Assembly: GCA_903813345.2 (NCBI GenBank)
Contig: CAIIXF020000003.1
Location: 11,236,931 to 11,300,930 of the forward strand
Source of the DNA: Owenia fusiformis
Taxonomy: Eukaryota; Annelida; Polychaeta; Sabellida; Oweniidae
Length of the DNA: 64,000 nucleotides
Direction: 5' to 3'
The position numbers and the translations under genes are program-made. Of this stretch, positions 7,436 to 57,227 are shown in pieces. Under the pieces are notes generated by a model that searched no databases, was not told the origin of the DNA, and saw only the letters and a list, made by a program, of their open reading frames with translations. Position 1 is the first letter of the stretch, and the number at the start of each line of letters is the position of its first letter.

Positions 7436-7828
7436 ATGAATTTTGACCAGTTATTAACTGAACATATAGGAGAGATCGGACCATATCAAATATGGATTCT
7501 AATTATACTAGCTTCACTGTCGACAGCAGGATCTATGGTAAACGTAAATATTGTCTTTCTGGCCGCAGTTCCAGAACATCATTGTTATGTCCCCGAACTT
7601 TGGAATTCAACGCTTAATTTAACGATTGATAAAATACGAACTTTAAGTGTACCATTGGACCCTGAAAATGGGGGCTATCAAAAATGTCATATGTATAATC
7701 GAGACTACGCAAACTTGTCACTGTCAGCGGTGGAGGCCTGGGATGTAAATGGGTCAGATGTAGGACTGACGCCGTGCAAACAATGGTACTATGACAAATC
7801 TCGATATTCAACTACCATTGTTTCTCAG
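7436..7828 (+). CDS. SLC22 gene 1 exon 1
   Basis: Encodes residues 1-131: cytosolic N-terminus (MNFDQLL), helix 1 and the glycosylated extracellular loop. Ends at ...GTTTCTCAG with donor GTAAGT at 7829, phase 0. The open frame runs on into the intron to 7945, but that extension is intronic. Confidence 0.93.
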
Positions 7829-23994: not shown

Positions 23995-24380
23995 GAACAC
24001 AATAGACTAACAGAAGATTGAAGTACACTCATAGAGCGCAGAAGACTAACAGAAGATTTAAGTACACTCATAGAGTGCAGTAGACTAGCAGAAGATTGAA
24101 GTACACTCATAGAGCGCAGTAGACTAACAGAAGATTGAAGTACACTCATAGAGTGCAGTAGACTAACAGAATATCTAAATATACTCATAGAGCGCAATAC
24201 TTTAACACGCTCATAGAACGCAGCAGACTGAATAAACTCATAGAGCGCAGCAGTCTAACGGAACATCTAAATACACTCATAGAGCGCAGTAGACTAAATA
24301 CACTCATAGAGCGCAATAGACTAAATACACTCATAGAGCGCAATAGACTAAATACACTCATAGAGCGCAGTAGACTAATA
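23995..24380. repeat. 39-bp minisatellite in the 3' flank of SLC22 gene 2
   Basis: Unit ACACTCATAGAGCGCAGTAG + ACTAACAGAAGATTGAAGT, shortening to about 26 bp (ACTAAATACACTCATAGAGCGCA split) toward the gene. About 10 units. Confidence 0.88.
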
Positions 24381-24397: not shown

Positions 24398-24610
24398 CTA
24401 TACATCATTTGCTGAACTTAAAGGTTCGGCTAATGTAGAATCGTCCATAGCTGGGTTAAATTTTCTTTTAAATTTACTGAAGTTTTCCGCCTCTTCCATC
24501 GTATCTGGGAGGTTCCTACCACGTGACTCTGGCAGCAGTAACACAACCAATGCTCCAATCAACGATGCTACGCCAAATATTAGGCTGGGTACGAACCAAC
24601 TAAATGCACC
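24398..24610 (-). CDS. SLC22 gene 2 exon 9 (last coding)
   Basis: Acceptor TTTATTTCAAG; helix 12, LLLPESRGRNLPDTMEEAE and a tail ending SSANDV before TAG. A 39-bp minisatellite begins 18 nt after the stop in the 3' flank. Confidence 0.92.
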   Translation of the reverse strand, partial: GAFSWFVPSLIFGVASLIGALVVLLLPESRGRNLPDTMEEAENFSKFKRKFNPAMDDSTLAEPLSSANDV

Positions 24611-27600
24611 CTTGAAATAAAGAAAGATGCGAGATGCAAAATGTATACGAATATTTGAAGCACATATTAGAGAGATTTCGCACATAAGTGAAAGTAAAAC
24701 TTATACGTATACGTATACTTTAAAGGGTCATGTCGAACTATTATTTTTACTAAAATCAATTTTAAATTGTACTTAATGGAACATAACTATTCCCGATACA
24801 GAAAAGCTCCATCAACCAGAGACTGTGAATGCACTGCCATCTGCACATGTAGATTATGCACATTATAATTAAATGCTTGCTTCCGTGTCCTAGTAGTTGT
24901 AGTGTATTCTAAACACGATCCTTTAAAGTGAGTCATGATCCTTTCAAGTGAGTCATTACATAAACAAGTTGATTATTTCAAAGTTTTCATGATCAGTATA
25001 AGTTCAATGAACTTACAAAATTGTATATACACGTAGATGATAAACGTATACAGTTGGATCTACGTATAAAGCTTTACCTCCATGTGTGTGGAACAATTGA
25101 CCACAAGTATTTTCTAAATTAATCGGCTGAGTAGGAACAGTATCCAATCAAATACTTTAACCATCAATTTGAAACACCAATCAAACCAGTAGGTTCTAGC
25201 AATTCCTGGAAACGACCCATTCAGTAGCTCAACAAATGACATACAGGGTGTTTCATAACGAGCATCTCCAAAAGGTCAATTTGAGAAGAGATGGGTCTAT
25301 ATGTATGTACTATATATGAGCCTATTTTATTCTAGACAAACACATTTGGATCAACTAAACATGCTACAATTCAAGAAAGTACAAAAGGCATCCCTTTTAG
25401 TATGTGAGCTAGCACCGAAAAATGTACCGGTGTCTGAACAAATTGAAATAACTTGTTTCTTATGTATTTTTATGTGATACTTCAGAAAATTTATGTCTGA
25501 CGCGCCGTATCCGGGGCGAAAGTGGTCAAAATGGGGTTTTTGACCCTAAAAAGGAAAATTACAGGGGGTACATTATCATCATTGAATAATTAATTCAGTT
25601 GATCTTCAATCATTATAATAATTTTATTGAGAGTTGATGAGATCATTCTGAGGTAGTATGTAAAGTTTCAATGGTCTGACACTCATGGTTGTCATGGAAA
25701 CCACAATGTTTGATGAGAAGATCCATAATTTTGGTAAAACCTGTACCTGCACCTAATATAGAATGTGGATTATTTTTCAAATCAACAGATATCAGAACAT
25801 TTTAGCATTCTCAAAATTACCAGGGCAGTTCAAACATTTATTTAAATATAAAGGATATTGCAATTAACATAACTGGTAAGTGTCAAAGACCATACAATTA
25901 CATTAGGGATCAAAAGTGGGTGTCGCCCTTATAGTAGTAGATGATTGCCATTCTCTATAAATACAGAATTTTAGTTGACTTTTGAGATACATTTATAATG
26001 ATGTTCTTTGGTTATAAATCATATCAAGCATTTTTGCTAAATAATGTACATCTAAGTGTTATACTTATTGCATGGGGGGAGGGGGGAGATGGGGGGGGGG
26101 GTAACAGAATTGAAAGAGGGCAGAGCTAATCATCCTTAAGTATAAATCTCATCTACATAGTTCTGGATTTCATGGGGTACATCGTCTGGGTCTTCTTCAC
26201 ATTCATCTCAATATATAGGATATTATAATTCTGCATTATTGGTAAGTATTAAGACCATAGAATTACTCAATTGATCAAAAGTGGGCGTCGCCCTTATCAA
26301 AGTCGATGATTCATTCTCTATAAATACAGTCTAACTTGACTTTTGAGATACATTTACATTGCAACTTCTTTGATTATACTTAATATCAAGCATTTCTGGT
26401 AAGTAATGCACATCTAATTGTAATAGTTCTTGCCTGGGGGAGAGTGGGGGAGAGTAGTAACAGAATCGGGAGGGGGCAGAGGTAATCAGCCTTAAAGGTG
26501 CAATAATTAGTGCAGAGGGGTCATTCAACGATCATGGACCAGTGTCAAAATATATTTAAGTTTGGATATTTCATCAAGACTAACATCTATTTTTATTATC
26601 TACAAAGAAACCCCCTAGATAAACATTATTTCAGCTGGTATTCCTCTTGAAACATGGTGGATCTTAAAAATATAAAAGTGGAAGTCCCCTTTTTGAAGCT
26701 TTGAACTGAATTTACACTTTCTCATGCTGAAATTGATAATTTATCCATACGTTTTAAGAAAATAGGTATGTCAAAGAAGATGTTAAACCAAATGTTGCCT
26801 TGATAGCTCAGAAAAAATTAAAAAACTTTCCTATTTTCTCTACAGTCCTTATTGCCCCTTTAAGTATAAATCTCATCTGCATAGTTCTGGATTTCATGAG
26901 GTACATCGTCTGGGTCTTCATATTCATCTCAATATATGGGATATGACAATTTACATGATTTGTCAAACACCATACAATTACATATCTCTCACAACTGCCG
27001 GCGGACCCGTACGCCCGATTTCAAACTTTTAAAAACTTTACTTTTTCGCGCCGTTCGTATTGTCCAATTAGATTGCCCGATTTATTCAGTGCCTAACATG
27101 ACTTCCTGTTGACCTAGAAATGGCGATATTTCGAAAAATAATTCTCAATTCAACAATTTAAACAGTGTTTTAGTCGTTTTTAGTGAACGAATCGTACAAA
27201 ATGGTGGACAAATACGATCACAACGAAAATGTGGAGGAAATGGATTACGATTTCGAGCTCTTTAGGCTCTTGGAAGCCGATAACGGTCATCGAAAATAGA
27301 AACTAGAATATTTTCTGAATTGAAAAATTGAACATTCGATCGCTGCAAATTCAGATTTGGATTCTGACCAGACGAAGAGGCGGAGCGGCGGATTCCGGAG
27401 GAGTATTCATGGTATATTTATGCCCAGTCGTGTTAATGTACGAAAAAATTCATGAGAACATTTTTTTTCATGAGCCAGGCCACTGTATCTTCCCTTTGTG
27501 AAAATTTTACCCAGATTCATTCAGTAGTTATTGAGATATTAATTATTTAGTCCAGGCATATCATTTTTTGCACTCTTTGAAAAATAAGCCAGTTGCGTGG

Positions 27601-30600
27601 GATATATTTGCTGAAATAAGGCAGCATGGTAAAGGTTAATAAATGATCAAAAGGGGGTGTCATCCTAACAATAGTAGATGATTGCTTCTTTGTATAAATA
27701 CAAAATTGAACTTGACTTTAGAGATACATTCATAGTTATACTGAACTGCTGTTATTTTAATTTATGTCAAGCATTTCTGGTAAATATATCTGTGTAAGTA
27801 TTATAGTTTTTACATTGGGGCGGGGTGAGTAGTAACAGAATTAGAATGTGTAGATCTAATCTGCCTTAAGTATAAATCTCATCTTCTTAATTCTGGATTG
27901 CATAGGGTACATCTTCTGGGGTTTTCTGATTCATCTCCTGGTGTTGCTATATCATCAATCTCTTATCTGAGAATATCAGTCAATACCCATTATAACGATG
28001 GAGTCATTTAGTTTCCATTCAAGTGCTTTATATGGATGAGATGGTTACAACAATCAGACGGTCCTTCATGAGACCAACTTAGGAATATTATCTAGAGATG
28101 AGAGGAGTGTGACACCCATAATGACCTTGGAAAGGCACAAATATCAAGTACAGAAAAAGACATAAAGATGACAGACACCGCAATCAAAGACTTTCTTGAT
28201 CCATTTACCATTTTGAGGATGAAGGTCATCTCTACAGTCTATCATAAGGAGAATCTGTGCCAAATGATGTCGCTGTCATCTAATTTTAGTCAAAAGGAAA
28301 AATTGCATGAAGAGATACCATCTGAGATTAGTCAAAAAAAAGATTTCATGATATAATAAAACATATGAAATTGAAAACTACAGCAGCAACAGTGACAGTA
28401 AAAAAGTACTCAGAACAAGCTAACAAGATGGCAAGAAAAAGACAACTTCAAAATGTATACAAGTCATAAGGAAAACAAACCCCAACTATCCCAAACCATA
28501 ATTAAACTTGAAAGCTAGTTTTGTTTCAAGATCTGACGGAGACTACAATTTATTTTCAAGATTCTACATTTGCAGATTGATTAATTTGGTATGTGATAAT
28601 TACATCAAAAATTCTATAAAGGAACCTGAAAGAGGGACCTTGACACCTTGCCCTATTTAAGGTTGAAAAACAAGAGTCCCTAAAGATTGGAATGAGTTCT
28701 TGTATGATGATGAAAACAAGAAGCAAAATACAGCAGTGTGCTGCTGGATACTTGAGTTGGAAACAAATGAAGACTGATGTCAGTGGTATTTCCTCCAATA
28801 TAGACCCTGACATATATGCAGCCTTCCTAGCACTTTACACATTCACAGATGAAGTGTCATGCAGAAAGGGCAATAGCAAGAGCACCTTTTTAAAAGGCAA
28901 AGGTGGAGCGCCATATAGCCACATTCAACTGAATGATTCTCAAATCTGCAAGTGTAGTGGTATATTCTTCCATATGATATTGTTAATATATTAACATCAG
29001 GAGAAGAATGAAAATGATCAGACTATGATATTAATACTTAAGACTGACTGGCCATTGGCTCTGCCCCCTCCCATTTCTGCTACTACCCCCTTGCCCCCCC
29101 CAGGGAATAACTATTACAATATTAAGTGTAATCAAAGAAGTTTTAATGTAAAAAATATATCTTAAAGTCAAGTTAAACTCCATATTCATAGAGAATGAAT
29201 TATCTACTATTGTGAGGGCAACACCACTTACGTAATTGAATGGTCTTTGACACTTACCAATCATGTAAATTGGAATATCCCATATATTGAGATGAATGTG
29301 AAGAAGACCCAGAAGATGTAGCCCATGAAATCCAGAACTAAGTAAATTAGATTTATATTTAAGGCTTATTAGCTCTGCCCATTTCCAATTCTGTTACTCC
29401 CCCCCCCCTCCTCCACCCCCAGGCAATAACTATTACAATTAGATGTATATAACTTACCAGAAATGCTTGACATTAAGTATAAATCAATGATGTTTTTAAG
29501 TAAATATACTTCAAAAGTCAAGTTAAACTCTCTATTTATAGAGAATGAACCATATACTATGATTAGGGCGATGCCCACTTTTGATCACATGTTTTATTCT
29601 ATGGTCTTTGACACTTACCAACCATGTAAATTCTAATATCTTCTATATTGAGATGAATATAATAAGACCAAGAAGATGTACCCTATGAAATCTAGAACCA
29701 TGAAGATGAGATTTATACTTAAGACTGATAAGCTCTGCCCCCTCCCATTCTGTTACTAGCCCCCCCTCTCTCCCCCCATGTATCCCCATGCAATAACTAT
29801 AACACTTAGATGTTAAAATGATTGATATTAAGTATAACCAAAGAAGTTCAATATAAATGTATCTCAAAAGTCAAGTAAAACTCTGTATTTATAGAGAATG
29901 GCAATCAACTACTATTATGAGGGCGACGCCCACTTTTGACCACTTATGTAATTGTATGGTCTTTGACACTTCCAGTCACATAAATTGCAATATTCTTTCA
30001 CTTTAAACAAATGTTTGGACAGCCCTGGTGATTTTTAGAGTGCTAAAATGTTCTAATATCTGTTGATATAAAAAATAATCCATATTCTATATTATGTACA
30101 GGTACAGGTTTTACCAAAATTAAGGATTTTCTCAGCAAAAATTGTGGTTTCCATGGCAACCATGAGTGACAGACCATTGAAACTTTATATACTACCTCAG
30201 AATGATCTCATCAAGGCTCAATAAAATTATTATGATGATTGAAGATCAACTGAATGAATTATTAAATGATGATAATGTACCCCCTGTAATTTTCCTTTTT
30301 AGGGTCAAAAACCCAATTTTGACAAATTTCGCCCCGGATATGGCGCGTCAGACAAAAATTTTCTGAAGTATCACATAAAAATACATAAGAAACAAGTAAT
30401 TTCAATTTGTTCAGAAGCCGGTACATTTTTCGGTGCTAGCTCACATACTATTTGACCTTTATTTATTACAGTCCGAGAAGATCTTTCCTGACGAAATACC
30501 CACATTATGAAACACCTCGTACGTCTTCTTATAAGTATAAGTATACGTTATAAGTTGTATTTTACGTATGTGCGAAATCTCTCTAGTCAACTTATAAACC

Positions 30601-33600
30601 AAAACAAACATACATGTAGGGTCTAAGCTGATGTCTCCTACTCTTCTCCCCGTTTCAAAATGGATAGACATACAATGGTCCTATATTTTTGAATTTCAGC
30701 TATTGAATATTTGGTGAAATAATTATCTCACATGGTTTCGGCTGACTCAAATAATCTCTTTAGGGATCAACGTCATCCATTTTGATACGGACACACCTTA
30801 TTGTCCATGAGTATACATGTGCACAGAGAGTGTGAAACCCATTGCAGTAGGTATGTATTTTCGGTATATCAAAAATAGCTTTAAATATAAAATTAATTAT
30901 GTTTTATTAAGAAATCCAAAGTATACAGTTAATTTGCTTACCAGTAAATTGACACACGGGGCCAGCATTCCCCCAACCCTTGCACAAGTGGAAGATGTAC
31001 CAACGCCAAGGTTGCGGACCTGAGTGGGGAATACCTCGGCAGCGTAGTTATACACCATACCAAACCCAGCAGATATCAGGAATTTTCCAGTCATTGACAA
31101 AACAATGATTAGCAGAGTCATATCTATAAGAAAACAAAGAGTTTTTCAGTGACATCTGAGCACTAAAGCTTTTTGACACACAAAAGGGGTACCGAATCCT
31201 AATGAAGAAACCATGACAATGACAACCGTTTACAGTGGCGGATCCAGGGGGAGGGGGGACATAGGGCCCAGGCCCCCCTTTTGTGAGCTCAGAAAAAATC
31301 TTTAGGGCCCAAAAATTATTTAGACCCAGAAATTTTGTAGGGCCTCAAAAACGGGCCTTTTTTGGCATAATTCTGCCTTTTGAGGCCTTTCTTAGGCCAA
31401 ATTTTTAAAAAATGGGATTTAAATTTTCAAAATTTTCGGATTTAGGGGCCCAATTTTTTTAAAAACATTCTTAATAACACTTTGTCCAATGAGTGTCGAA
31501 TGTGTGTTGTATGACATTCTGTCCAATGAGTGTCAAATGTAACCCTACTGAATGGTCTGTCATTATTTATTCCTAAATTTAAGTCCTGAGAATAGCACAA
31601 GCAGTAAGCAGTATGCATAAGCAGTTAACTTATGTCAGGAAATCAATTTCCTGATGTAATATTTAACTCGTACTTACGTTTTGGAATTACCAAGATACAA
31701 AGTAAAGCTAATCCTCCACACATGAAAGCAAAGCTGATGGGGTATCTTCTCCCTATCTTCCAGAAACAAATATGGGCCAACACATAGGCAGGGACCTCAA
31801 TTGCCCCGGATATGAGGAAATTGACGTAAGGATCACCTCCCCACGATGATGAATTGAGGGATAGACCATAGTAGACAAAGGCACACACAAACCTGAAAGC
31901 AAGTATGCGAAAATTCATTTGAGTTTTCCTATACGAAGAAATCATATGGATAGAAAAGGCCGTTAAGGTTGTCTATTTTACTTGAATACTTGTGGATTAA
32001 TATATTGTCTGAAACGTTCATGACCCTTGCCCTGTGTCATCTTAAGAATTCTTTATTGGATTTAGGCTCACACTGTCATATGTTTTGTGTGAAGCATGAC
32101 TGAGCTGGATCGTGGCGAATTTATTTCACAAATAGAGTTTTTATTCAAACGTCATGGCAAGTGCTCAGTATTAAAATATGGTATGAGTACCTCACCAGAC
32201 GTAGAACATGGCAAGTGCTCAGTGTTAAAATATGGTATGAGTAACTCATCAGGCGTATAACATGACAAGTGCTCAGTGTTAAAATATGGTATGAGTAAGT
32301 CACCAGACGTAGAACATGGCAAGTGCTCAGTGTTAAAATATGGTATGAGTAACTCACCAGGCGTATATAATATCATGGCAAGTGCTCAGTGTTAAAATAT
32401 GGTATGAGTAACTCATCAGGCGTAGAACATGGCAAGTGCTCAGCGTTAAAATATGGTATGAGTAACTCACCAGACGTAGAACATGGCAAGTGCTCAGTGT
32501 TAAAATATGGTATGAGTAACTCACCAGGCGTATAACATGGCAAGTGCTCAGTGTTAAAATATGGTATGAGTAACTCACCAGACGTAGAACATGGCAAGTG
32601 CTCAGTGTTAAAATATGGTATGAGTAACTCACCAGGCGTATAACATGGCAAATGCTCAGCGTTAAAATATGGTATGAGTAACTCACCAGGCGTATAACAT
32701 GGCAAGTGCTCAGTGTTAAAATATGGTATGAGTAACTCACCAGGCGTATAACATGGCAAGTGTTCAGTGTTAAAATATGGTATGAGTAACTCATCAGGCG
32801 TATAACATGGCAAGTGTTCAGTGTTAAAATATGGTATGAGTAACTCATCAAGCGTATAACATGGCAAGTGCTCAGTGTTAAAATATGGTATGAGTAACTC
32901 ACCAGACGTATAACATGGCAAGTGTTCAGTGTTAAAATATGGTATGAGTAACTCATCAAGCGTATAACATGGCAAGTGCTCAGTGTTAAAATATGGTATG
33001 AGTAACTCACCAGGCGTATAACATGGCAAGTGTTCAGTGTTAAAATATGGTATGAGTAACTCACCAGGCGTATAACATGGCAAGTGTTCAGTGTTAAAAT
33101 ATGGTATGAGTAAACACCAGACGTAGAACATGGCAAGTGTTCAGTGTTAAAATATGGTATGAGTAACTCATCAGGCGTAGAACATGGCAAGAGCTCAGTG
33201 TTAAAATATGGTATGAGTAACTCATCAGGCGTAGAACATGGCAAGTGCTCAGTGTTAAAATAATGGTATGAGTAACTCACCAGGCGTAGAACATGGCAAG
33301 TGCTCAGTGTTAAAATATGGTATGAGTAACTCATCAGGCGTATAACATGGCAAGTGTTCAGTGTTAAAATATGGTATGAGTAACTCACCAGGCGTAGAAC
33401 ATGGCAAGTGCCCTCTTTCTCATCCTTGGTGTCCGCATTAAATCAATGATTGTGTGGTTGGCAGCGTTTGTCTGAAATGCAAAAAATACCATAAGAAATT
33501 TTCCATTTTTAATTTTATAAAACACTATATTAACATAGTATTTGTTTTAAATCTGTTTAAATAAGCTAGGAAGTTTAACAAGTTGCAATGTTTCATAGAA

Positions 33601-36600
33601 ATGACTATGGTGAGATGTGTAACATGCAGTTTGCTTATAAAATGATAAAGCAAATGTATATTTCAGGGTTTACCTTACTTTAATAGCAAACAAGAACTAA
33701 TTGGCACGATAGAGACAATATGTTGGCTAAATTGTAAAATAGGTTGAGCTTTGAAAACATAAATCATATGAACCCATATTAAGCAAATAAATACGCCAAG
33801 TAGACACATTATACTGTTATAATACAGTTTACCATGACAATTTATGTCAAACGTACACATGTTTTAAAGAAAACCTTTACTTGAACGTGAAACATTATGT
33901 ATTCCACACCTGATGAGGTTTCAGGGACGTATCAACCGGGAATATATTCCATATCCGGGAAATTTTTTTCGTATGTCCTGCACCAACGAGTATCCGGGAC
34001 ATATAAATCGTATGCCCCGCATAAGCCGTTCTCCGGGACATACGATGGCTATATGTCACGCCCCGGGAATTCATGTCATAACTGTTTCAGCCCTGGACTA
34101 AACAAGAGACAGAGGTGCCAAACGAACGGGGTAAACAGAATGGATGAATTCTAAGTAAACACAGGAAATGAACACACCGCAAAGAAACTCATTTGGATGT
34201 TCAAGTACTGAAGAAGTACTTGGCCACTAAGGGGAACTCCAGCCCGTCGACGATCTGCTTATTATTTCAAACTTCATCAGGTATGGAATACATAGTGGTT
34301 ATGCAATATGCACGGTCGGTTTTGATACAGGTAATATCCTTTGGGATGTACAAAATATTGTATATCCCTCGGGATATTCCCTGTATCTAAAACCTTATGT
34401 ATTCAATACCTGATGAGGTTTCAGGGACATATTAACCGTGAATGCATTCCAATTCCATTTCCGGGTGAAAATATTTCATATGTTCCGCGGGATCCCGGGT
34501 GTACAAATCCTATATTCCGCATAAAGCGTTCTCTGAGACATACGATTGCTATATACAAACCTCACCAGGTATGGAATACAACAGTTATGCACGGTCGGTT
34601 TTGATACAGAAAATACACCTAAGGATATACAATATATCTTCCCTTGATCCTATCGGGCCCTCGGAAAGATATATTGTATATCTCTCGGGATATTCCCTGT
34701 ATCCAAAACCTCACAGTGCGTAACCTCTATAATTGCCACATGTGTTCTTAACTTTGCCAGTCTATGTATTGTATATTTAAATGTATTAAACTGAAATAAA
34801 AGAAAAAACACCATAATTCTACGACCACGTACAAGTTCTCTTAAAGCTAGTATATCCACCTCCTATCCCTTTTTATATTACACACTGTATATACGAGTAA
34901 GTTCTAATGATAATTGTGTCAATGATAATGTCCTGAGCAAGACAGTGTCATGGCGTAGCATATTCAGACGGTTTCTTCATAACACAGTTATAAATATAGT
35001 CCAAGACAAGTATACCACATCCTGCGATAAAACGGAGAGTCGAAAACGAGCTGCTCGCAAAAAGAGAGGAACGTTTTGTTTTCGACAACTATATCTTTAC
35101 TATGTTTATGAATTCTAATGATCAATACTTAAAGTTGTATTTAGGATGTGAATCGCAGCTGTTGTCTCTTATAACCAGAACGCACAAATGTCTCACTGCG
35201 TATTGCATAATTGCACAATTGAATATCAAATATTACCTCCACATTTACATTGAGTGCCTTTGGGATGTCCTTCCTGTTCCACTTTGCAATTTTTCTGACA
35301 GCAGCATCGGCATTTTCGGTTTTACATTTAGCGTATAACCACCGAGGTGATTCTGGAAGAAAACTAGAACGACGACAATGATATTATGTTATTCTTTTTT
35401 ATGCATGCGGATGTGTTTTTTAGTATATTTTTCAATAAGGGCACCAAATTCTTCACTTGCTAAATCACAGGGTGTGTACCAAATTAAGCGTGTCAGTTAA
35501 ACGCACGGGGTAAACCTACAACTTTAAACTTCGAATGTAGCAAACGGTAAAACGCGCAGGTAAAGGAGTGGTATCGATATAGAGAACTTTTTGAAAACAC
35601 GTTTCTCTTAAACCAGTCATAAAAAATCTAAAAATTTTACACATCGTCAATTTAATGGTCATCTTTTGAATGGTAACAATATAATTTGAAAAAATATATA
35701 TACGTGCGCGTTCATCTATATTGTTTTAGAAAACACATCAAACACTTGTTGTGTTCTTGGTATCATGTTTCCAGAGTGAAATGAAACATCTTTCCGAACG
35801 GAACAAAACGACATAAACACAACATGTTTAGGTCTCTCAATATTGTGATTGTACAAAGGAAATTTTGGTTGATATTAAAAAAGTATCTCAGTGTTAATGA
35901 AATAAAAGGTTTATCTTGATTTTTATCTATTTTGGGGGGATTTTGTTTTAATTTTTTGAATACTTTTTTTTAAAAATCAACCAAAAATTCCTTTGTATAA
36001 CTATAATATTGAGAGGTCTAAAAACATGTTGTATATGCTATTTTGTTCCAGCAAGGTTCGGAAAGACATTTTATTTCATTCTCAAGAATTGGTAGAAAGG
36101 AGCTAAAACAATTGCACTAAAAAACAAAAAAATGTTAACAAAAACAGTTATATAAAATATTTCTAAATAATTTTCGCATTAAATTGTTGTCAATCAGTCA
36201 ACATTACATAAAATACCGTGCTTTTTACAGAATGTTATCAATGATTGGTTTAAGAGAAAAACATTGTTGAATTCAGTTCTCCATATCGATACCACTCCTT
36301 TACATGAAGTACGGTATAACGCAAATTCAAGTTCCTCGTGTTGTACTTTAACCTGCGCGTTCAACTGTCACGCTTAATTTGGTACAGTCCCTGTGTTCAG
36401 CAGTGTTGAGCGGGCGTTGTTTCTAGAACTCTAATCTAAAACCTGTTAAACAGGACTGGCATCTGTACTTACAAAATGAGGAAGCAATGCAGAGCAAGTG
36501 GTATGACCAACACCAACTGTAGCGTGGACCAATCTCTTATATAATAAGCTACAAGAGCAAGCACCATAAAACCCATCGACCAGGAATACTGCATTGACAA

Positions 36601-39600
36601 CCCGCTCGTGTTCCTCCATGACGGACCAACAAGCTCCATATCTAAAATGATTGCTTCGAGTGATAAAATGATGATCATAAAAGGATGGTGGTGCAGTCCA
36701 CTTGTTTATATATAATGAATGGTAACATGAACTACCATTAGTGCCATCTTTATATCGGCCTAAAACCTTGAAAGTGCATTTATGTTTTCAGGTTGAAGTC
36801 TACAATTTTTAACAGATTAATCTACAATGCTCTACAAGTATACATTGCATAGACCTACTGAATACGAATCCTATGGTATAACTGCTTATGCTGAAGACAG
36901 CCGTACAGAACCTCAAGATGGTGAATATCGTAAAGTTGGGCGAAAACGCAGTCGCAAAAGAGAACACAACAGTCAATGCATAACACCCAATGATGGTGTA
37001 ACGTCTCCCAAATCTTGAATACAAAAATAAAATATGAGATGATTAACATGGGGTGATCAAATTTGGAGTAATGCCACGACTTTTTGTTATGGAAAATAGA
37101 ACAACTGGATATACCATGCAAAATGATGAAGCACAAATGGGCAACATTTGAAACAAATCGAAAACCTATTTCAATTCTTTTTTAGAGATGAATCTCAGCA
37201 TAATGTAATTTTGCATCTAAACACTTAGCTTGTATTCGCAAATGCAACTAACGCCTGTCGGCTACCGGATTAACCTGCTATTCTATGGGCAACTCATCTG
37301 AATATGAATAGTAATTGCCACAAGTCCATTCATATTTAAATGAGTTGGCCATAAAATAATAGATTAAACCGGTAGCCGGCAGGCGTTAGTTGCATTCGCG
37401 AATACAAGGCATGCCCGTAGCCAGCTTTTTGTAAGGGGGGGGGGGGGGGGGGGCTCGAACCCCCCCTACCCTCCCGCAAACCGCCCCCCCCAAAAGAAAA
37501 TTCCCCATGCTAAACCAAGCCCCTTTGTATTGTAAAGGACAGTGGCAGATCCGGAAGCTAACAAGGGGGGACACAGACTTCAAGTCAGGAAAAAATATCC
37601 GCGCTTGCGCGGAAAAACTTTTCAGGGCACTAAAACAAGAATTTGGGCCAAAATTTAGAAAATCTATGGCATGTTTTTTGAAAATTTGGCCTAACATTGA
37701 AAAAAATAAGGCCCAAAAAGGTCAAGTAATGGCCAAAAAAGCCCATTGAAGATTTATGGCCCGTTCTTTGAATATTTTGCCTAAAATTGAAAAAATAAGG
37801 GGCAAAAAGGTCAAGTAATGCCCAAAAAGGCCCACTATAGGCCCTTCAATATTTTTGGGCCGACATTTTTTTCTGGGCCAATCCTATGGCTGCGTGGAAA
37901 ACCTTTTAGGGCCCTAGAACCAAAATTTAGAAAATTTATGGCCCGTTTTTGAAAATATGGCCTAAAATTGAAAAAATAAGGCCCAAAAGGTCAAGTAAAA
38001 AGGTCAAGTAAAGGCCAACTAAAGAGGCCCTACAATATTTTTGGCCCAACATTTTTTTCTAAGCCCATCCTAGGGCCGTGCGTAAAATTTTAAAGGCCCT
38101 AAAACCCAAATTCAGGCGAAGTTTTTGAAAGTTTTTGGCCCGTTTTTTGAAAATTTAGCCTGAAATTGAAAAAAATAAAGCCCAAAAAGGTCAGGTAAAA
38201 AGGTCAAGCAAAGGCCAACTAAAGAGGCCCTACAATATTTTTGGCCCGACATTTTTTTCTTGGGCTATCCTAGGGCCGCGCATAAAATTTTTAGGGCCCT
38301 TTAACCCAAATTCGGGCCAAAATTTTGAAAATTTATAGCCCGTTTTTTGAAAATTTGGCCTGATATTGAAAAAAGTAAGGCCCAAAAGGTCAAGTAATGC
38401 CCAAATTCGAAAAACAATGCACAGTAATGCCAGTTTTTTAATCTTGATTGCCCAGTGAATGTGGGGAAGAGCAAGTTTTTCTTCAAGGAAGCAAAAAGGT
38501 AGGTCCACATTTTTTTAGGAGATATCGGGGGGGGGGGGGCTCGGACGAGCCCCCAGAGCCCCCCCTGGCTACGGGCCTGCAAGGTTCACCCCTCCATAAG
38601 TTTGGCAACCTTAGCTCCCCCATTGAACTACGTGTTAAAGCCTCTTTACTTCCTGCGATGAAAATACTTATACTATTGATTGAAACGTAATTTGACTTTA
38701 TTTCCAATACCTCCCAATTTTCTCAATTTTTTCCTCAATTACAATAGTTCGAAAATTGATGTTTTGATGAATTTTTGAAAATCGACATTCCCATGTTAAC
38801 CAATGGAAAATGGAAGGTTGTTTGCCTCAAGTCATGTGACAGAATATCCATCACTCTGAGTCCTTGCAAAAAATACAAGTTAGGTAGGCAATTGAATTTG
38901 CTAACTTTAACTTTAAAGTCCCCGTCTAAAGTTTGAAAATATTTTTTTATCATTCATTTACTATTTGTCAGGACTTAAAAAGTGATTTTAGAGATTTTTG
39001 AACAAAAAAATTTTTTTTGAAAAAAAAGTTGTGAGCATTTCATTTCTCAAATATTCAAATTTCCCGCCATTTTTCAAAAGAAGTTGAAATTTCTTAATCA
39101 TCAAATATTTCTTAATGCATTTCAAAAAGGATTATCTTTTTAACACCAATGCAAAGATTGAACAAACGACACACTATTTCAATAATAAAATGTCATATTT
39201 AATGGGCCACTTCAATGTTTTAGCTTATCAAAAATATTTTGAAACATTAGTGATGTCACTAAGGTAACAAACACTTTTTGAAAAAAATTGAATTTTTTTT
39301 TCGATGTCAATCTTTTCTAAATATGCTAGATTTTCATAAAAAAACAATGTTGATTGTCTAACCAGGTTAAAAGGAAGAATAAATTATGTTTTAGATATCA
39401 TTGTACCATTGGTTTCTATGAGAACTAAAATTTTGAAATGCATTTTTCTCAGAACCATTTTCATGCACTGATAAGTTCATTTCTCGCTTGTTTATCAACC
39501 GATTTTCTTAATTTTTTCGGCAGAAAACATGGGAGGATGAATGCTATGCATTGGTATTAATTGTGGCTAATTAGAAGATATGAATGACCTCTAAAAGTTG

Positions 39601-42600
39601 GTTTTAAATAAATTCACAAATTTTGGAACAAAAAGTCTTATCAAAAACCACTTTTTGAAATTTAAAAAAAAAGTTTCACATATCACACTTTGATAACATT
39701 GGGTAAGACTACAATATAAGCCAAAGTGGTTTAAACTTTACATGGGGCCTTTAACAAAAAATTGATACCTTTGTTCAGGATCAGCAAAGTTATAGGTCTT
39801 TAAAGTCAAAATTATTTTTCAAAAAACCTCTCCCATTGAAACAAGAGATCATTTTAAAAAATGAAGGCTCGTGTGAAGGAGATGTTTGCAGTGATGTAAT
39901 GAATTGTATTGATAAATAGGGATGCTTACTTTTAACGCGGTTGTAATTTACCGAGCGGCAAAAGTAGAAAAATTCGAACATTTTGAACATAGCCAAGGGA
40001 AAAGTAATAGTAAGCTGTATATTAGAAGAGACAGGTGCACAAGTCTGACTTAGACCACTTGTTAAGAGGGAGATTTCAACAATATCTAGTGTATTATTTT
40101 CAAAAAGCAATGGGCAGTTGATAGAAAATTGATAGTTTGTAGCTCTTACCTAAGATTGAAACAAAGTCAGATGAAATAGAGTGAATAATGCTGTCTAAAA
40201 GAGAGAATTTCTGAAAACCTACAATTACCAGGCAAGTTCAGTATCCAGAAAAAATGAACAAGTGATCTGATTGGTCACTGCTGACCTCCCTGACCTCCAA
40301 AAGTGACAATTTCTGTATTAACCAACCAAATCACTTGTTACAAATTTCAGCTTGCCAGGCAATTGTAGATATCCATAGTTGTTGTTTTATAAGCACTATT
40401 ATATGCAGTTTTAAGATAAAGATTTGAAAAAAACAATGATATAAGTTTGAAAAACACTTTAAAGAAGATTTTGGAGAGATTTGGGAATACAATTTGATAC
40501 TAGCTGAGACTAACATATTATTACTAACACATTATGTTAGTCTCAGATACCAGTAAGGAGAACTAGTGCCAAGACTAAAAATATTTGAAAATTTTTCAAT
40601 CTTACTTGTGCACCTGTCTCTTCTATATACAGCTTACTATTACTTTACCCTTGGCCTATGGTTTTGAACTGATTAAGATCTTTAACTTGTGAAGGTCTGA
40701 GTACCTGGACCTCTTAGAAAACATCCAAACATATCAAAAAGTGGAGATGGGTCAATTTGATTCTCGTTCTCCGAAGATATTAATAAAATAGTTAAATGTT
40801 TTTCACAATTATAAATCAAGAAGTCGCTCGTATTTCTGTCGTATTTAGGAAATCATGTTGCCGAAAATCAGTGCCCATAAAATAACAGTGTTCATGGTGT
40901 TGTTGTAAAATTGCGTATATGTCGTTTGAAACCCTCTCTAACTTTTGCTCGAGGAATTAACTCATTTTCATCAATAAATATTAACCCATCAGGTTTTCTA
41001 CTAGTAAACTAACGTTTAAACCTCAGTCCATTGTCATTATCACTTACTATTAAACCCAAGTGAGATATGGCTCTTGCCTCAGCACGAGCCAATAACACAG
41101 GAGGCGAAAAATGATTTTCAAAAATGGCTTTGAAGCTCACTAACTTTAGTATTCATCAAGTAAGTTAAACACTTAGTGTTCAAAAAAGTTAGACAATCCA
41201 ATTTTCTATATAAAATTATTTTTTGCTGAATCTTTTTGTGAACAGATATCATGATTTCTGATATGCCCCGAACCATTGGTTTACATGGGAATAACGATTT
41301 TCAAAAATTCATCAAAATCATCAATTTTCGACCTGTTGTAATCGAGGAAAAAAATTGGGAAATTTTGAAGGTATTGGAAATAAAGTCAAGTTACGTTTCC
41401 ATCAATAGTTATAAGTTATTTCATCGCAGGTTAAGTGAATAAAAATTCAAACGTAAAGAGGCTTAAACACGTAGTTCAATGGGGGAGCTAAGGTTACCAA
41501 ACTTGGGGAATGTAAGACACACAAGGATGATTAATAAAATTTCGCTGTTCTCGGCTTGTTCTCCAATTACACCTTAAATGACCCTTCCAGTTTCACCTAC
41601 ACCGTGATCAGCAGACTATGCCATTTAACATGTAATAAGGGAAGTTAACCTAAAAGGCCACTGAATTTGAAATAATTTACAAAGACGACGGCATATGGTA
41701 ATACAGTGTCCGTTGTCCCGTATCTCATTTTGATCGGTTAAATTAAAGACTTTATGTCGATGGTAGAACATAATTAACAGTATAAAGTATAAATTTTGAT
41801 TGATTGTTGTTCCAAAGGAATTTAGTCTATGTGCTCTATTAAACATACAGTTCGTGAAAATCTAATTGAAGCGACGGTAATGTCCGCCATTTGTGACAAC
41901 GGTATTTGACTTTACCGTTGCCAGGCTATTCCGGCGTGACTCTGTTCAAATAGACAAATGATTGCATTATTGCAAAAATCTTTAGTTTTCCTCAATAAGT
42001 ATATACTTGGGGTATTTTTAGAAAATAGGCATGACAAGGAATGATTTTTCTTGATTTTGAAGCAATTTTCGTCAAGATGAAGTAACCAAAGTAATTCCTA
42101 AATCTGATCCTGGATTTAACATGTTTAATTGCAATATAAATGACTAGTATGTGACTGAAATATAAAAAGTGTGACTCTAATGTTCTTTAACTTTACTGAC
42201 CTGTCGGCTATTTGTCCTGATATCAGTGTACCGACGAGATAGCCGGCCATGAACATGATATTTGTTAAATATATCATCCATTCATAATCACACACCAGGC
42301 CAAACTGAAATAAAAAACACATAAACAAGTATAAAATATGAAAAATGTAAATATATATAAATACAATATATACATATATACCTCATAATAGTACTAAGAC
42401 TATGACTACAGAAAATAAACTACCATTCACTCATAGCCCAACACCACCAAACTCGAAGCAACATACATGTACTACTCATAGCCCCATACAAACGCACCCG
42501 CAGCCACACACGACCACATTCAAAGCCTCACATGACCACACTCGTAACCTAATTATACAACACTCGCAACTCCATGCGACCACACTCGTAACCACACTCG

Positions 42601-45600
42601 TAATTCAACACTCCCAGATTCCCAGTCACACATGAAAACACTCGTAGCCACACATGACCAATCCGTAACCTCATTACAAGAGTACAATTATACTACACTC
42701 ATAGTTCCAGTACACGACCACACTCGTACTCTCGTAGACTCACATGCCCACACTCGTAACCCAACTATACAACACTCGCAACTCCACACGACCACACTCG
42801 TAACCTCATTACACGAGTACAACTATACTACACGCATTGTTCCAGTGCACGACCACACTCGTACTGTCGTAGACTCACATGACCACACTCGTAACCCAAC
42901 TATACAGCACTCGCAACTCCACACGACCACACTCGTAACCTCATTACACGAGTACAACTATACTACACTCATAGTTCCAGTGCACGACCACACTCGTACT
43001 CTCGTAGACTCACATGACCACACTCGTAACTAAACTATACAACACTCGCAACTCCACATGGCCACACTCGTAACCTCATTACACGAGTACAACTATACTA
43101 CACTCATAGTTCCAGTACACGACCACACTCGTACTCTCGTACTCTCGCAGACTCACATGCCCACACTCGTAACCCAACTATACAACACTCGCAACTCCAC
43201 ACGACCACACTCGTAACCTCATTACACGAGTACAACTATACTACACTCATAGTTCCAGTACTGCACCCGAGCCCGACATAAGTGCCTTACAAGCTGATGA
43301 CATGGATAATTGCACTCATAGATGAAATATTTAAAATATAACCATAGAAGTAGATGATGAATTAAAAACAGTTTCTCTTTTTATTTTGAGAAGGTGAAAT
43401 CTCAAATAATTGGTCAATTTGAAGCAAGTTGAAAAAGACATTAAGAAGGTTATTGAAGGTCAAATCTTTTTTGACCTTGAAAATGTAATAGAAGGTCAAA
43501 TTTAAAGTCAGATTTGAACTTCGGATAACTTGTAAATGATTTTGAAAAAAAGTCGACCTTTTACCCCTTTTTTATCTTGAAAAGGTCATTGAAGGTAAAA
43601 TCTTAAATGTAAAGTCAGATTTGAACTTCTGAAAACTTCTAGATGATTTTGAAAAAAATAAAGTCAATCTAAACAGTAATTGTTAAATTTTTTTAAAAGA
43701 CCTTTAATGACCTTGAGATGGTCATTGGAGGTCAAAACTCAAATCTTAAGTCAGATGCGAACTTCTGAGAACTTGTAGATGATTTTTAAAAATAATTGGT
43801 CAATTTGAAGCAAGTTGAAAAAGACCTTTTGACCTTGAGAAGGTCAAATCTTTTTTGACTTTGGGAATGTCATTTAAGGTCAAATCTATAGTCAAATTTG
43901 AACATTTAAGAACTTGTAGATAATTTAAAAAAAATGGTCAATTTGGAGCAAGTTGAAAAACGACCTTTTGACCTTTTTGACCTTGAGAAGGTTATTGAAG
44001 GTCAAATCTTAAATCTAAAGTAAGATTTGAACTTTTGATAACTTGTAGATGATTTTGAAAAAAAAGAACTTTTTTTAACCTTTTGTTACCTTGAAAAGGT
44101 CATTGACGGTCAAATCTTAAACGTAAAGTCAGATTTGAATTTCTGAAAACTTGTAGACGATTTTGAAAAAATTGAAGTCAGTCTAAACAATATTTGTTAA
44201 GTTATTTGAAGTTTTAAGAATTTGTTAGACGCCAACAGCCAACCGCCACCCGCCGATCACCAACCACCAATCGCCACAAAAAAACAGAGACCATAACAAC
44301 TACAAAAATCAGCAAAAACAAATACCATGTGACCATGACATGACATGATGATTTAAGATTGGGTGGAGCGGGGCGTTCATGGGTAAGTGCATCGTTCCCT
44401 TTTGAATGGAATTATAATATTTGAATAATGGGTTATCTATTAACATTGTATTTCAATTCATATAATTTCAATAGCAAGTCTCAAGCGAACACTTTGTAAA
44501 GAAGCAAAACAACAATACTATTGGCCGATCAAACAACACTGTTCAATCAAAATATTGTAGATGTTTGCATTTTGGATTTGTCTGCTGGTGTAAAAGCTAA
44601 TACCTCAGTCACATTTGCCTTTTATTTAGGCTGCAGATATCTCTCGATTTTGGGAAGCTGCAGCCGCCGTACGGTTACCGTTGGTCTCATGTGACTAAAG
44701 CACTATTACGTATCGAAGTCGTATATTGAATTTACTATTTTGACTGACTAATCTACATGTTTTGATTTGAAGTTACTGTTGTAGCAGGATGCTGACCCTT
44801 ACTTGTATTTATACGAAGGGTCACATGATATTTTTTTGTTTTTCGGCGTCTGTAACAAATGTCATGTAATGACATTTTGCATGTAAATGCTTGTTGTTTT
44901 CATTCCTTACCGTGCGGGCAAGACCATGGGCTTTCAATTAAAGTTGACAGCCCATGGCAAGACCCCTCAATTTCATATACTAAAATGAATTAACAATTAA
45001 CACCAAACCGAGATCTAGCCGAGATCAACAATGAAAATGGAAAAAGAATCGAGAAGAACAAAAAAGTCAGAACAGAGAAGTGAAATCATATCAAATCCTT
45101 TGAGATAAAGTTCAAGTTTATATTTCATTGTCAAATCAAGAAATGCGTATACCGCTACCAGTATAACTATACTGCATGTTAAATCCCTATCTAGGCCCAT
45201 TAAGCTGTCAACGCAAACATTAATGTGGTTTCATATTCCAGCAAACTGTAGAAGTTGCTTCTCAAAGCAGAATTAGGGTTTTGCTAAAATGTTACTGTAC
45301 ACAGAGAAATATACTTCATTTCCCATCATTTTGTTTTTGAGATAATAATGTTATTTATCTTATTTGACTTAGTTTGTTGACAAAATATAAATAAATAGAA
45401 TGCGTACTGTTAAAAAATCATTGTTAGATTATTTAAAAGGATGAGATTTCGTTGATTTATTTCTGAAAGGTTACTACACGCTAATATAAAGAGTTTACAG
45501 TAATAGTAATAGTAGAATAGTAGAAACCAAACTTTACATTCTAAATGTAGCAAACTTTATCATTTATATTATTTATCGAATCCATCTAGTCTTGGATCTA

Positions 45601-48600
45601 TCAATGGTTTTCAATGTAGTGTACTGTGAAAGAATGCTGGCTATCTCAAATATTTTCAACGTTCTTTTTAATCTATTTTGAGTGACAAATATTTCAGAAG
45701 AGGTTGATTAGATGATACAAAATAGTAAACTTTGCAAACTTTTGTTGTGAATTTATATCCTTTCGGTTGCAATTTTTGGTAATTTTTGATATTCTACAAA
45801 TACTGCACATATAGTGTGAGTGCACAGTAGGGTCAGCATTATAGTACCCCACACAAGTTTTTGATAATAACTTTAACCCGTGATTTGAACATTCCACCAA
45901 AATTGCTATATTGTTTCAATGAATATGATGTTAAAACTGTAGTGCATTTATGATTCAACCATGACAACACCTGGGCAACTAGATATCAAGCGCAAGTATA
46001 TTCCAAAATAAAGCTTTGTCAATGAACCTGTCTATGTATAGACAGACTACTGATAGACTATTCAAAAATACCATAAAGATCTACTTTAAACAGAGTGTTA
46101 TTGTTCAAATAAGTGATAAGTAAATAAAATTGTTTAAATCAATTCTAAATTTTGATTTTATGACGTCAAATTGGTTAAAAGCATTAATGACACCTGACCA
46201 GTGTGTTTCTATTGTTATTGATATTGAATTAAAATGAAAACAAAACTTTCCTATGTTGCCACTAGTTTATCTGTGTGCTAAATTTAATAACACATAGTTT
46301 AGGGTAGAATGTTAAAATCACGGGTCAAAGTTATTATCAAAAACTCGTGCGGGGTACTAGTGACTAGAAATTGAGCATTCTACACAGCTTTACATTTAAT
46401 TAACATAAGACTTTTCAATGTTTTGACCATTAGACATTTTAACAGTTAAGTATTCATGTTTATGCCTTATCAATGTTAAGTAGTTACACTCTTCCAAGAC
46501 TCCTACTGCAGACGTATCAGATGACAAACAAACTGGCTTAATCACTGATGATAAGGAAATTCTATACCGCTAGTGTAGCGGTATACGCTGCCATAGGAGA
46601 TTTCTTGATTTGGTTAAGTCTGTTATGGCCAATGCTTCCCTCTCATCTCTCCCTTTATATGCAATTTGATTTCACGTACTTGTAGTCTGACTGCTCAAAC
46701 TTTATACCTCTTTTTCAATATTGCATGTACACGCCTAACCATCGACAAGGTACAGTGACAAAATATACCGTAGTACACTTTAGATGTACCATGTCACTAT
46801 TTAACCGATTTGAAGCAAAGACAATGATGTAGGTTTGATGTCTTTAAAATATAATCTGAGGGATGCAAATGTCGTCTCAAAGTGTCGAAGATTCTTATGA
46901 GAATATGTTTCTTTAAACAGCACAATTAAGGTCTGTTGAAGATTTAACGAGTATGAACAATTTGGCTATAATTTAAAAAATCAAAAGTGTATGTTGTCAA
47001 CTCGAATGTACGTTGTCCCATTGAACTTACTCAATTCACACTTACTTACTCACAGTTAACCCTAATGCAGAGAACGTATTTTTCATAACACTAACAGACA
47101 CAGGCCCGTAAGACACTTTTCTCCAAGGGGGGTGCGGTTTTTAGCTTACTAAAGAGAATATAAAATTGTCATTTTTTTGCCGCGTAAATCAAATCGCGGA
47201 GGACAGAGGGGGGGGGGGGGGGGGTCAGTTACTCCCTATATTGGTTTGGAATTAACAAATGGATGCAACTTCCAAACGTTCCAATTGTTTTGTGGGGTGT
47301 GTGAGGATTGGTCTACTCCCCCTAGAAAATTTTACAGTTTTGAGATGCTATTTGGTGCTTTCTGGACACTTTCAAAGTGTAAGTTTCTAAGTAGTACGCC
47401 ACCACCACGGGAATAAGAGTTGAGTGAATAAAAACTGAGCATTCAGGGGGGTCTGGGGGTTCTCCCCCCAGGAAAATTTGGAAATTTGGTTGTATTTGGA
47501 GCGAATTTGCAACCATCTGGTACGCCTGTGCGTTATGAGTCAATAAGAAAAATGTGAATTTTTTTCAAATTCTTTTGGGGGTGTCAAAGAGGATGAGAGG
47601 GTGAAGTGGGGTGGGGTGCCAGTAGGGGAGCAAGGGGTTGTCCCCCAGAAACATTGACCATATCAAGGTGCTATTTGATGATGTCTGGGCACTTAAAAAA
47701 TGTCTGAGACAATACATGATATTCAGAATATTTTCTTTTGTTTTGTGGGGGATGTGAGGGGTGGCTAACTCTCCTAGAAAAAATTACAATTTAAATATGA
47801 TATTTGGTGCTTCTGGGCACTTTTAAAGTGTATTAGTCAATAAAAACATTGAAAAACAATCACAATTTTTTTCAAATTCTGGGGGTGTCAAAGGGGCGGG
47901 GAGGGGTGCCAGAGGGGGAGATGGGGCTGGGGTGCCAGAGGGGGAGAAAGTGTTTGTCCCCCATATCAAAATTTACAATATCAAGGTGCTATTCGATGAA
48001 GTTTGGGCAATTTTAAAGTGTCTGTGCCTAAAAGTGCCTATTTCCCAAGAAAATTTTACAATTTTAAGATGCTATTTGGTGCTTTCTTGGCACTTCCAAA
48101 GGGTATGAGTCAATAAAAAAATTTGAAAAATCTCATATCTCTTTTTGGGGGGGGGTGTTGAGGGGGGGGGTGTTGAGGGAGGGGGGCTGCTAGAGGGGGA
48201 TGTGGAGTGGGGATGCCAGAGGGCGAGTAAGTGTTAGTCTTCCAGAATCATTAACTTTATCAAGGAGCTATTTGATGATGTCTGGGCAATTTAAAAGTGT
48301 CTGAGACAATACATAAAACAAATTCAGAACTTTTCCATTGTTTTGTTTGGGGTGTGAAGGGTGGCCCACTCCCCCTAGAAAATTTTACAATTTTACGACG
48401 CTATTTGGTGCTTTCTAGGCACTTTCAAAGTGTATGAGTCAATTAAAGAATTTGAGAAAATCACAATTTTTTTTGAGGGGGGGGGGGGGTCAAGGGGGGG
48501 GGGGGGGGGCGCCAGAGGGGGGGGGTATGCAAGTGCAAGATGCAAGAGAGGGAGTAAGTCCCCCAGAAATACTAACTATATCAAGGAGCTATTTGATGAT

Positions 48601-55420: not shown

Positions 55421-57227
55421 CTGAAAGTGGAGAAGATGTTTACTATAATCAGGTTTTGAAATATTAAAGATACAATAGCTGTATTTCCTATCCTATAACC
55501 TTGAACTTCAAACAAAAACTCCTTGCCCAAAAGGCAGGACAAGTTCCGTATTTTTTTCGATCTTAAAAGACAATTAATTCATTTTCTAAATGACTAAAAA
55601 GAAGGTTTATGTCCTATGAATTAAATATGAACTAAACAATTATGATTTTTCAGAAAAATACGTCTGATAAACCAACAAATCATTATATATTAATCACATG
55701 GAGTGATTGAAATGACTGTAGCAGCCGTAGCCAAGTTAGACTCCCATTAAATGGATATGAGCATTAGTTCAGATGAACTAATGCTTTGTTTGTATTAACC
55801 TCTTGAATCCCAGGCTCTAAAATCAGTTGAAACCAGAGAAGTTTTCATTTTTGCCTGCTTTTACGACACACATATACAACAGCTGATGCTCATCTTAGTA
55901 AAATTAGGGAACAGAGTTTCAACATTTCTACACATTTTAAAACAATTTTTGAGTAAATTGGATGAAAATTGTTCAAATAAGAGCAATTTTAGTGAAACAT
56001 TTTGTGACAGATTATCTTGTCACTCAGGGTTTCAAGGAAGTCAAGAGGTTAAATAGATAAACAAAAAGATGGATGGAGTAATGGGCAATTCCATAGGCTC
56101 ACAATGATAGCCAAAATACATAATTCCTTTAATTTTGAGGAACCCTTGACATCCCTCTGTTCTCTGCTGATTGCTCTGATGTGTTGTAACTCACCCACAT
56201 CCAGCTTCAGTTTAGCAGTATAGGCAAAGTCTACAATGGCAGCTAGACCAGGGGCTGAGACACCATTCAGAGTGATCACATCCAATTTACATTCCTTCAT
56301 CTCATCAGTGAACATAGCCCTGCAATAGCATATTTCATTTAGCAGTATAGGCAAAGTCTACAATGGCAGCTAGACCAGGGGCTGAGACACCATTCAGAGT
56401 GATCACATCCAGTTTACATTCCTTTATCTCATCAGTGAACATAGCCCTGCAATAGCATATTTCATTTAGCAGTATAGGCAAAGTCTACAATGGCAGCTAG
56501 ACCAGAGGCTGAGACACCATTCAGAGTGATCACATCCAGTTTACATTCCTTCATCTTATCAGTGAACATAGCCCTGCAATAGCATATTTCATTTAGCAGT
56601 ATAGGCAAAGTCTACAATGGCAGCTAGACCAGAGGCTGAGACACCATTCAGAGTGATCACATCCAGTTTACATTCCTTCATCTTATCAGTGAACATAGCC
56701 CTGCAATAGCATATTTCATTTAGCAGTATAGGCAAAGTCTACAATGGCAGCTAGACCAGAGGCTGAGACACCATTCAGAGTGATCACATCCAGTTTACAT
56801 TCCTTCATCTTATCAGTGAACATAGCCCCGCAATAGCATATTTCATTTGGTTGAATATTGTAAGAAGTAAATGATTATGGTTACCTAAGTTTCTTAAAAT
56901 TCTTAAAAACATCATGATTTCCACCTTACAATTGCTAAAATGCCCAAAATTGTTCTTAAAAGGTATGCAACGGTTTAGATTAGCTGATTTTGCATATTCT
57001 TTTAAATGTCTGTATATGTTGTAAAAAAACTTGGTTTACCCCAAAATTTAAAAAAGCAAATACCTAAAATATTCACTGCATGAAGCAAGTACAGCTTTAT
57101 GTGCCTTGAATTCCTTCCCCTCTGCAATCAGTGTGATGTCAAACAGCAGTTTCTTGTCCCTCAGGGCATTCAGACCCTTCATGACAGCACGCTCATGACC
57201 CTCATCTTTGTGCTCCCAAGGGTCCAT
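53811..57227 (-). CDS. BTB-BACK-Kelch (KLHL-type) protein, 3 coding exons, 632 aa
   Basis: Likely substrate adaptor of a CUL3 ubiquitin ligase. Coding exons: 57227-57064 (exon starts at 57242), 56319-56195, 55420-53811; joined 1899 nt is open. BTB about residues 15-125 (LLFDITLIAEGKEFKAHKAV, SCSEYFRAMF, VDFAYTAKL), BACK about 130-240 (CATYLERFLDFENC, ILNAVLNWV), then about six Kelch blades (IGGFD, IAGGN, CAGL, ISGGM, VAGGW, IIGGF, each with a Y-x-W-type partner). The overall design and the end (WEEDQWFP...CTLEVP) recall the KLHL26/KLHL9/KLHL13 group, but I assign no orthologue. The ATG at 57227 has a strong context; the ATG at 57254 lies across the intron acceptor and is rejected. Upstream 5'UTR exons were not found. 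Intron 1 ends in five tandem copies of the exon 2 acceptor region. It lies 3 kb upstream of SLC22 gene 2 on the same strand. Confidence 0.93.
55421..56194. other. KLHL gene intron 2
   Basis: 774 bp, AT-rich, no repeat or ORF of note. Confidence 0.6.
56195..56319 (-). CDS. KLHL gene exon 2 (BTB second half)
   Basis: Acceptor GCTATTGCAG; AMFTDEMKECKLDVITLNGV to TAKLKLDVG; donor GTGAGT, phase 1, 125 nt. This is the only one of five tandem copies that keeps the 3' end of the exon and the donor. Confidence 0.9.
56211..56845 (-). repeat. 127-bp tandem array built from a 3' splice junction, 5 copies
   Basis: The block TTTAGCAGTATAGGCAAAG (+) recurs at 56211, 56338, 56465, 56592 and 56719, exactly 127 bp apart. 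In gene direction each unit holds the end of KLHL intron 1 (ATATGCTATTGCAG), then about 105 nt of exon 2 up to GCCTATACTGCT, where it jumps back to intron sequence AAATGAAATATG. Only the 56211 copy continues into the exon's 3' end and donor. Acceptors are at 56320, 56447, 56574 and 56701 (AG kept); the farthest copy (56828) reads GCGG, so its AG is lost. Copies 3-5 share CCAGAGG against CCAGGGG in the others. Confidence 0.95.

Follow-up and report, generated by a model that had tools for sequence, protein, structure and literature searches.

A 54-bp minisatellite repeating the exon 6 donor junction of an Owenia fusiformis SLC22 transporter gene

When a minisatellite repeats a 5' splice site many times over, immediately beside the exon that ends in it, the question arises of which donor the gene uses and what becomes of the other copies. 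In the annelid Owenia fusiformis, such a locus occurs within a 64,000-nt stretch of contig CAIIXF020000003.1 (hereafter the window, whose own positions are used throughout). The host gene lies on the (-) strand at 24398..50839, with a nine-exon model of 552 aa and no internal stop. Pfam assigns the product to Sugar_tr/MFS_1 (Sugar_tr, E 3.2e-30) and its best solved relative is the organic cation/carnitine transporter 2 (OCTN2, chain 9pdq_A; E 1.2e-95), aligned along residues 3-535. With a near full-length match to SLC22 proteins and membership of the MFS family, the gene is, as judged from its translation and as initially proposed, an SLC22 transporter. Since only frame-keeping and stop-free joins were allowed in the gene models, which were scored with splice-site weights, the reading frame is no independent test of the model; the SLC22 match along residues 3-535 is. 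From about 20 nt past the stop codon, two minisatellites (39 and 27 bp) occupy positions 23992-24378, probably within the 3' UTR of this gene.

The junction of concern is that of exon 6 with intron 6. Exon 6 (83 nt; 33389..33471, (-) strand) consists of TNAANHTIIDLMRTPRMRKRALAMFYA plus the TG of Trp350, as delimited by blastn, the gene model and the paralogous exon end at 18799. The true 5' splice site, CTG/GTGAGTTAC (the slash marking the junction), lies at 33380..33391 with its GT at 33388-33387, and opens a phase-2 intron of 1496 nt (31893..33388) whose acceptor ends at 31893, followed in the gene model by exon 7 (31678..31892).

Most of this intron, namely 1236 of its 1496 nt (83%), is taken up by a 54-bp minisatellite at 32153..33411 on the (-) strand, composed of 23 full units, the first of which (copy 1) is the genuine junction itself, and a 12-nt partial one. 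Over the 64-kb window, TRF reports it as a single array (32153-33411, period 54, 23.2 copies, 93% matches), the score of which, 2163, is the highest among 39 rows, so that chance is no issue. Splitting the array at the exon-tail motif likewise gives 23 full copies and a partial copy 24 of 12 nt, in agreement with the roughly 23 copies of 54 bp initially annotated, and such head-to-tail units, falling within about 10-100 bp (54 bp x 23.2), correspond to a minisatellite. Units measure 54 nt in 20 of 23 cases and 53, 55 and 59 nt once each; the 20 equal-length (54-nt) copies, all read from one haplotype, exhibit a pairwise identity of 94.8%. On the minus strand, the unit comprises (i) 22-23 nt from the end of exon 6, (ii) the donor, and (iii) about 31 nt of intron. 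When exon 6 is compared with the window by blastn, its last 22-23 nt are found again, with 91-100% identity, at 21 further places throughout the array, i.e., copies 2-23 minus copy 20, where an insertion leaves a 12-nt match, which bears out the original description of the unit as exon 6 tail and donor. Of the bounds then given (32153-33400), the start stands and the end moves to 33411, and the array includes the true junction as copy 1. The presence of GCACTTGCCATG at both ends, taken at that time as bounding the array, does not amount to an independent flanking repeat, as one occurrence opens copy 1 and the other is partial copy 24. An exact-match search with a 29-base unit pattern containing one degenerate position returned nothing from viral_contigs and genome_contigs, which is expected for an animal sequence.

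The initial annotation further viewed the array as up to 23 near-identical exon-end/donor cassettes, which holds for about half of them. The full donor CTG/GTGAGTTA is present in 12 of 23 copies, the real site counted, while a weaker GT site remains in three (copies 6, 21, and 23) and AT replaces GT in eight (copies 2, 4, 5, 9, 11, 12, 19, and 22). Respective to the 22 extra copies, this amounts to 11 full donors, identical to the real one over -3..+8, three weaker GT sites and eight dead ones. As such, the array spans a donor in the strict sense, i.e., its unit joins an exon end, a GT donor and an intron start and several units keep the donor, the junction behind this assignment being supported by the paralogue described below. 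Among the 20 equal-length copies, donor position +1 is one of the most variable columns (12 G vs 8 A); the exon-plus-donor part has nine variable columns out of 28 and the intron part three out of 26, a difference that is not significant (p = 0.10). Because eight of 23 copies have lost GT and +1 stands at 12 G to 8 A, the extra donors do not look maintained, and their sequences give no sign of preservation. Predicted pairing with U1, computed against the U1 5' end and with the value for copy 6 (53 nt) left out, is -9.2 kcal/mol for the real donor and the full copies, -8.6 for copy 23, -5.1 for copy 21, and -2.6 for the AT copies. The real donor lies within the values spanned by the other 16 donors modelled in the window (-5.3 to -12.9 kcal/mol). 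Given that the 11 intact extra donors pair with U1 like the real one, the sequence by itself does not forbid their use.

A hairpin masking its own donor was considered as a designed feature and rejected, as shuffled sequences fold equally well. The real unit, taken as 60 nt, folds into an 8-bp stem between exon tail and donor (-9.0 kcal/mol), matched by 35 of 200 shuffles (z -0.84); extending exon 6 by 27 intronic nt gives z -0.20 (77/200 shuffles), an AT unit adopts a different fold (z -1.66, 11/200 shuffles), and the paralogue reaches z +0.98 (170/200 shuffles).

A comparison is available within the window, where two SLC22 paralogues lie in opposite orientation, at 7436-20007 (+) and 50839-24398 (-). 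The paralogous exon (18705-18799, (+) strand) ends in RKRTLAMCYA and TG at 18799, followed by gtaagt, i.e., the same phase-2 junction, and blastn aligns the last 34 nt of exon 6 with 18766-18799 (79% identity). The shared junction supports the end of exon 6 at 33389, which was most likely placed correctly from the outset. The intron that follows (18800-18942) is 143 nt long and TRF detects no array in it; since the same junction thus exists without an array, the SLC22 array is best read as derived, as the sequence comparison suggests. Similarity between the two intron heads was apparent by eye only and was rejected as evidence of intronic homology (p = 0.11, or 0.20 in a cruder test), the five other intron pairs compared giving p from 0.086 to 0.87. 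As a consequence, a shared ancestral intron is not established as the source of the unit's intronic portion. Homology with the paralogue is confined to the exon part; the intronic portion is linked to the junction through its continuity with copy 1.

The plus-strand SLC22 gene presents some features of its own. Its model has no counterpart of exon 2 of the minus-strand gene, which is either missed or absent, and the start of its second exon is doubtful. One of its introns holds a 77-bp x 4.4 array at 17331-17666, where inspection by eye shows an acceptor-like TTCTTTCAG in some units and TTCGTTCGG or TTCTTTCGG in others, the acceptor-like motif having no match to the start of the next exon. Also in an intron of this gene, two minus-strand frames match DDE_Tnp_4 (14506-14913, E 3.9e-08; 15467-15715, E 4.6e-07), which we take to be Harbinger/PIF-like, and a third frame nearby (15681-16241) has no match. 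At 21106-21522 and 21538-21954, two 417-nt arms, 96% complementary and 15 nt apart, form an inverted repeat that is possibly a fold-back element.

From the array, the content of its units, the donor states, the stop described below, the intact gene model and the array-free paralogue, all legible in the DNA, we infer how the array was made, which donor dominates and what mis-spliced RNA would undergo. In all likelihood, a tandem duplication straddling the SLC22 exon 6/intron 6 junction was amplified by array turnover, with the exon-proximal donor working and the other copies cryptic or dead. Slippage or unequal exchange would have expanded the duplication into a 23-unit minisatellite. A duplication over a donor would leave the complete exon joined to the first copy only, for which reason the exon-proximal donor at 33388 would stay the working site. 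The remaining copies would have become intronic and drifted, giving the present 11 full donors, three weak ones and eight without GT among 22, and occasional use of a distal donor would be possible. Units two apart share variants at 0.695 vs 0.599 in shuffles, a value reached by 92 of 5000 shuffles and the sole lag with p below 0.05 among eight tested, which hints at dimer-wise exchange between units; adjacent units (lag 1) are alike at the level of the shuffles (p = 0.53). The right end of the array stops 12 nt inside a unit. A simple single duplication would need a pre-existing 12-nt repeat 54 nt apart, and this end is explained equally well by a later deletion or exchange with its breakpoint within a unit.

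The same window contains an array on the acceptor side. At 56206..56848 on the (-) strand, a BTB-BACK-Kelch (KLHL-type) gene has five copies of a 127-bp unit composed of 21 nt of intron with the acceptor and the 106 nt that open exon 2, with units starting at, among others, 56721, 56594 and 56467. The copy adjoining the intact exon (exon start 56319) remains in frame, each of the four distal copies encodes YTAK followed by a stop, and the outermost has CGG instead of CAG. This acceptor array mirrors the SLC22 donor array. Counted as 13 merged arrays with a TRF score of at least 200, tandem repeats cover 9.6% of the window and include 137 of 5196 coding nt. They show no enrichment at splice junctions, as 2 of 34 modelled junctions lie in arrays vs about 3.3 expected by area, figures that depend on the gene models used. 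Since two is not above 3.3, no special affinity of arrays for splice sites is shown.

Similar architectures are on record in human genes. The 31-bp VNTR of the human CBS gene was reportedly treated by Lievers et al. in 2001, and Turri et al. (in 1995) are said to be the source for the repeat donors of IFI6. In the accessible part of one source, the CBS VNTR is named c.1444_1467+7 and has 16-21 copies (PMC2630376), which in our reading means 24 exonic and 7 intronic nucleotides, donor included. By this HGVS name, its unit thus resembles that of the SLC22 array in comprising an exon end, a donor and an intron start; the copy number is similar and, as far as the accessible text goes, single-nucleotide differences occur among units in both. 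The differences lie in the unit (31 bp, vs 54 bp with more intron) and the gene (human CBS vs an animal SLC22 gene), as well as in variation, since the CBS VNTR is polymorphic in length and reported, in the text available, to track activity, whereas the SLC22 array is known here from one haplotype. Located at exon 13/intron 13, the CBS VNTR was reported with lower enzyme activity when more units are present, although the review that reports this calls the results inconsistent overall (PMC5188458), and a table in another partly accessible source gives the effect with a question mark (PMC1395315). For the IFI6 minisatellite, the accessible text states that two downstream repeat units act as donors, resulting in three mRNA species (PMC4526556). 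Tandem repeats downstream of the real donor supply further donors in both genes; unlike the IFI6 units so described, which are used, a distal donor of SLC22 would meet a stop at once. A close parallel of the KLHL-type array (56206-56848) is CBS 844ins68, a duplicated splice junction where, according to the available passages, splicing prefers the copy attached to the intact exon, which call the sites donor although the named junction is an acceptor (PMC2630376); it differs in being a single extra copy, at an acceptor, and its preference agrees with proximal-site use in the SLC22 gene. Intron gain by tandem genomic duplication, as far as outlined in the accessible text of a review (PMC3443670), also copies splice-site sequence, but there an exonic duplication creates a new intron, whereas in SLC22 an existing junction was copied into an existing intron. 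Minisatellites at exon-intron boundaries are discussed, in the part available, for human duplicated genes (PMC2812944). Calling the amplification of a donor at this scale unusual, as the initial annotation did, was therefore fair, but the architecture had already been documented with the CBS 31-bp VNTR and IFI6. The literature consulted, in which SLC22 was not queried by name and most subscription papers were outside reach, yielded no SLC22 donor array, which is no proof of novelty.

In the unspliced sequence, the codon after the TGG of Trp350 (residue 350 of 552) is an in-frame TGA (33387-33385), so that any donor beyond the first adds a stop at this place. Use of a distal donor would lengthen exon 6 by roughly n x 54 nt and, with the stop after residue 350, would lead to product loss and not to longer isoforms, the protein being truncated or the mRNA exposed to nonsense-mediated decay. 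Copy 3 (donor at 33280; that of copy 7 is at 33064) is the first extra copy keeping GT and its use would leave about 104 nt between the stop and the new exon junction downstream. In animals with junction-dependent decay, a stop some 104 nt before a junction would mark the mRNA. Alternatively, the array might function as a bank of decoy donors tunable by copy number, where the intact copies compete for U1 or splice rarely into the built-in stop and the number of units sets transporter output. The 11 of 22 extra donors with the same -3..+8 sequence and U1 pairing as the real one, the position of the TGA, the lower CBS activity reported with more units, inconsistent overall (PMC5188458, as excerpted), and the donor use recorded in the accessible text on IFI6 (PMC4526556) speak for it; the eight of 23 copies devoid of a donor, the variability of +1 and the lack of a significant hairpin over the donor in two 60-nt units (z -0.84 and -1.66) speak against it and make it unlikely. 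If true, array length would set the amount of full-length transporter and, together with the acceptor array of the neighbouring KLHL-type gene, the genome would provide a natural test of how many competing splice sites can be tolerated on either side of an exon.

Assemblies often give the wrong length for arrays whose units are nearly identical, and the SLC22 array could be a shorter or longer one expanded or collapsed by this process; with unit variants and three length variants interspersed along it, and 12 other arrays of TRF score at least 200 in the same window, such an artefact is very improbable as an explanation, a wrong copy number being possible and a wholly false array not likely. 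That the units are real micro-exons with their own acceptors hardly deserves any credence since, although most units have, immediately ahead of the exon-derived part, TTTTAACACTGAG or a sequence one base away from it, which by eye resembles a poor branch point with an AG, a pyrimidine tract is absent and this part is just the 22-23 nt tail of exon 6, the inclusion of which would shift or stop the frame.

A junction-straddling duplication with a working proximal donor being the preferred account, the SLC22 array appears as a real and tidy case of a known kind, with more intron per unit than CBS and a built-in stop. The category itself is not new, human genes already carrying such arrays according to the accessible texts. 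For an array of this sort, allele-length variation is plausible, and the array may conceivably alter transcript diversity or exon definition. The value of the locus resides in its being a natural cis series of near-identical donors, some intact and some killed at +1, adjoining one real exon, with the array-free paralogue as a control, and so RNA reads by themselves would be enough to test the proximity and exon-definition rules of donor choice. As the window also contains the acceptor array, the donor and the acceptor sides may both be read in one genome.
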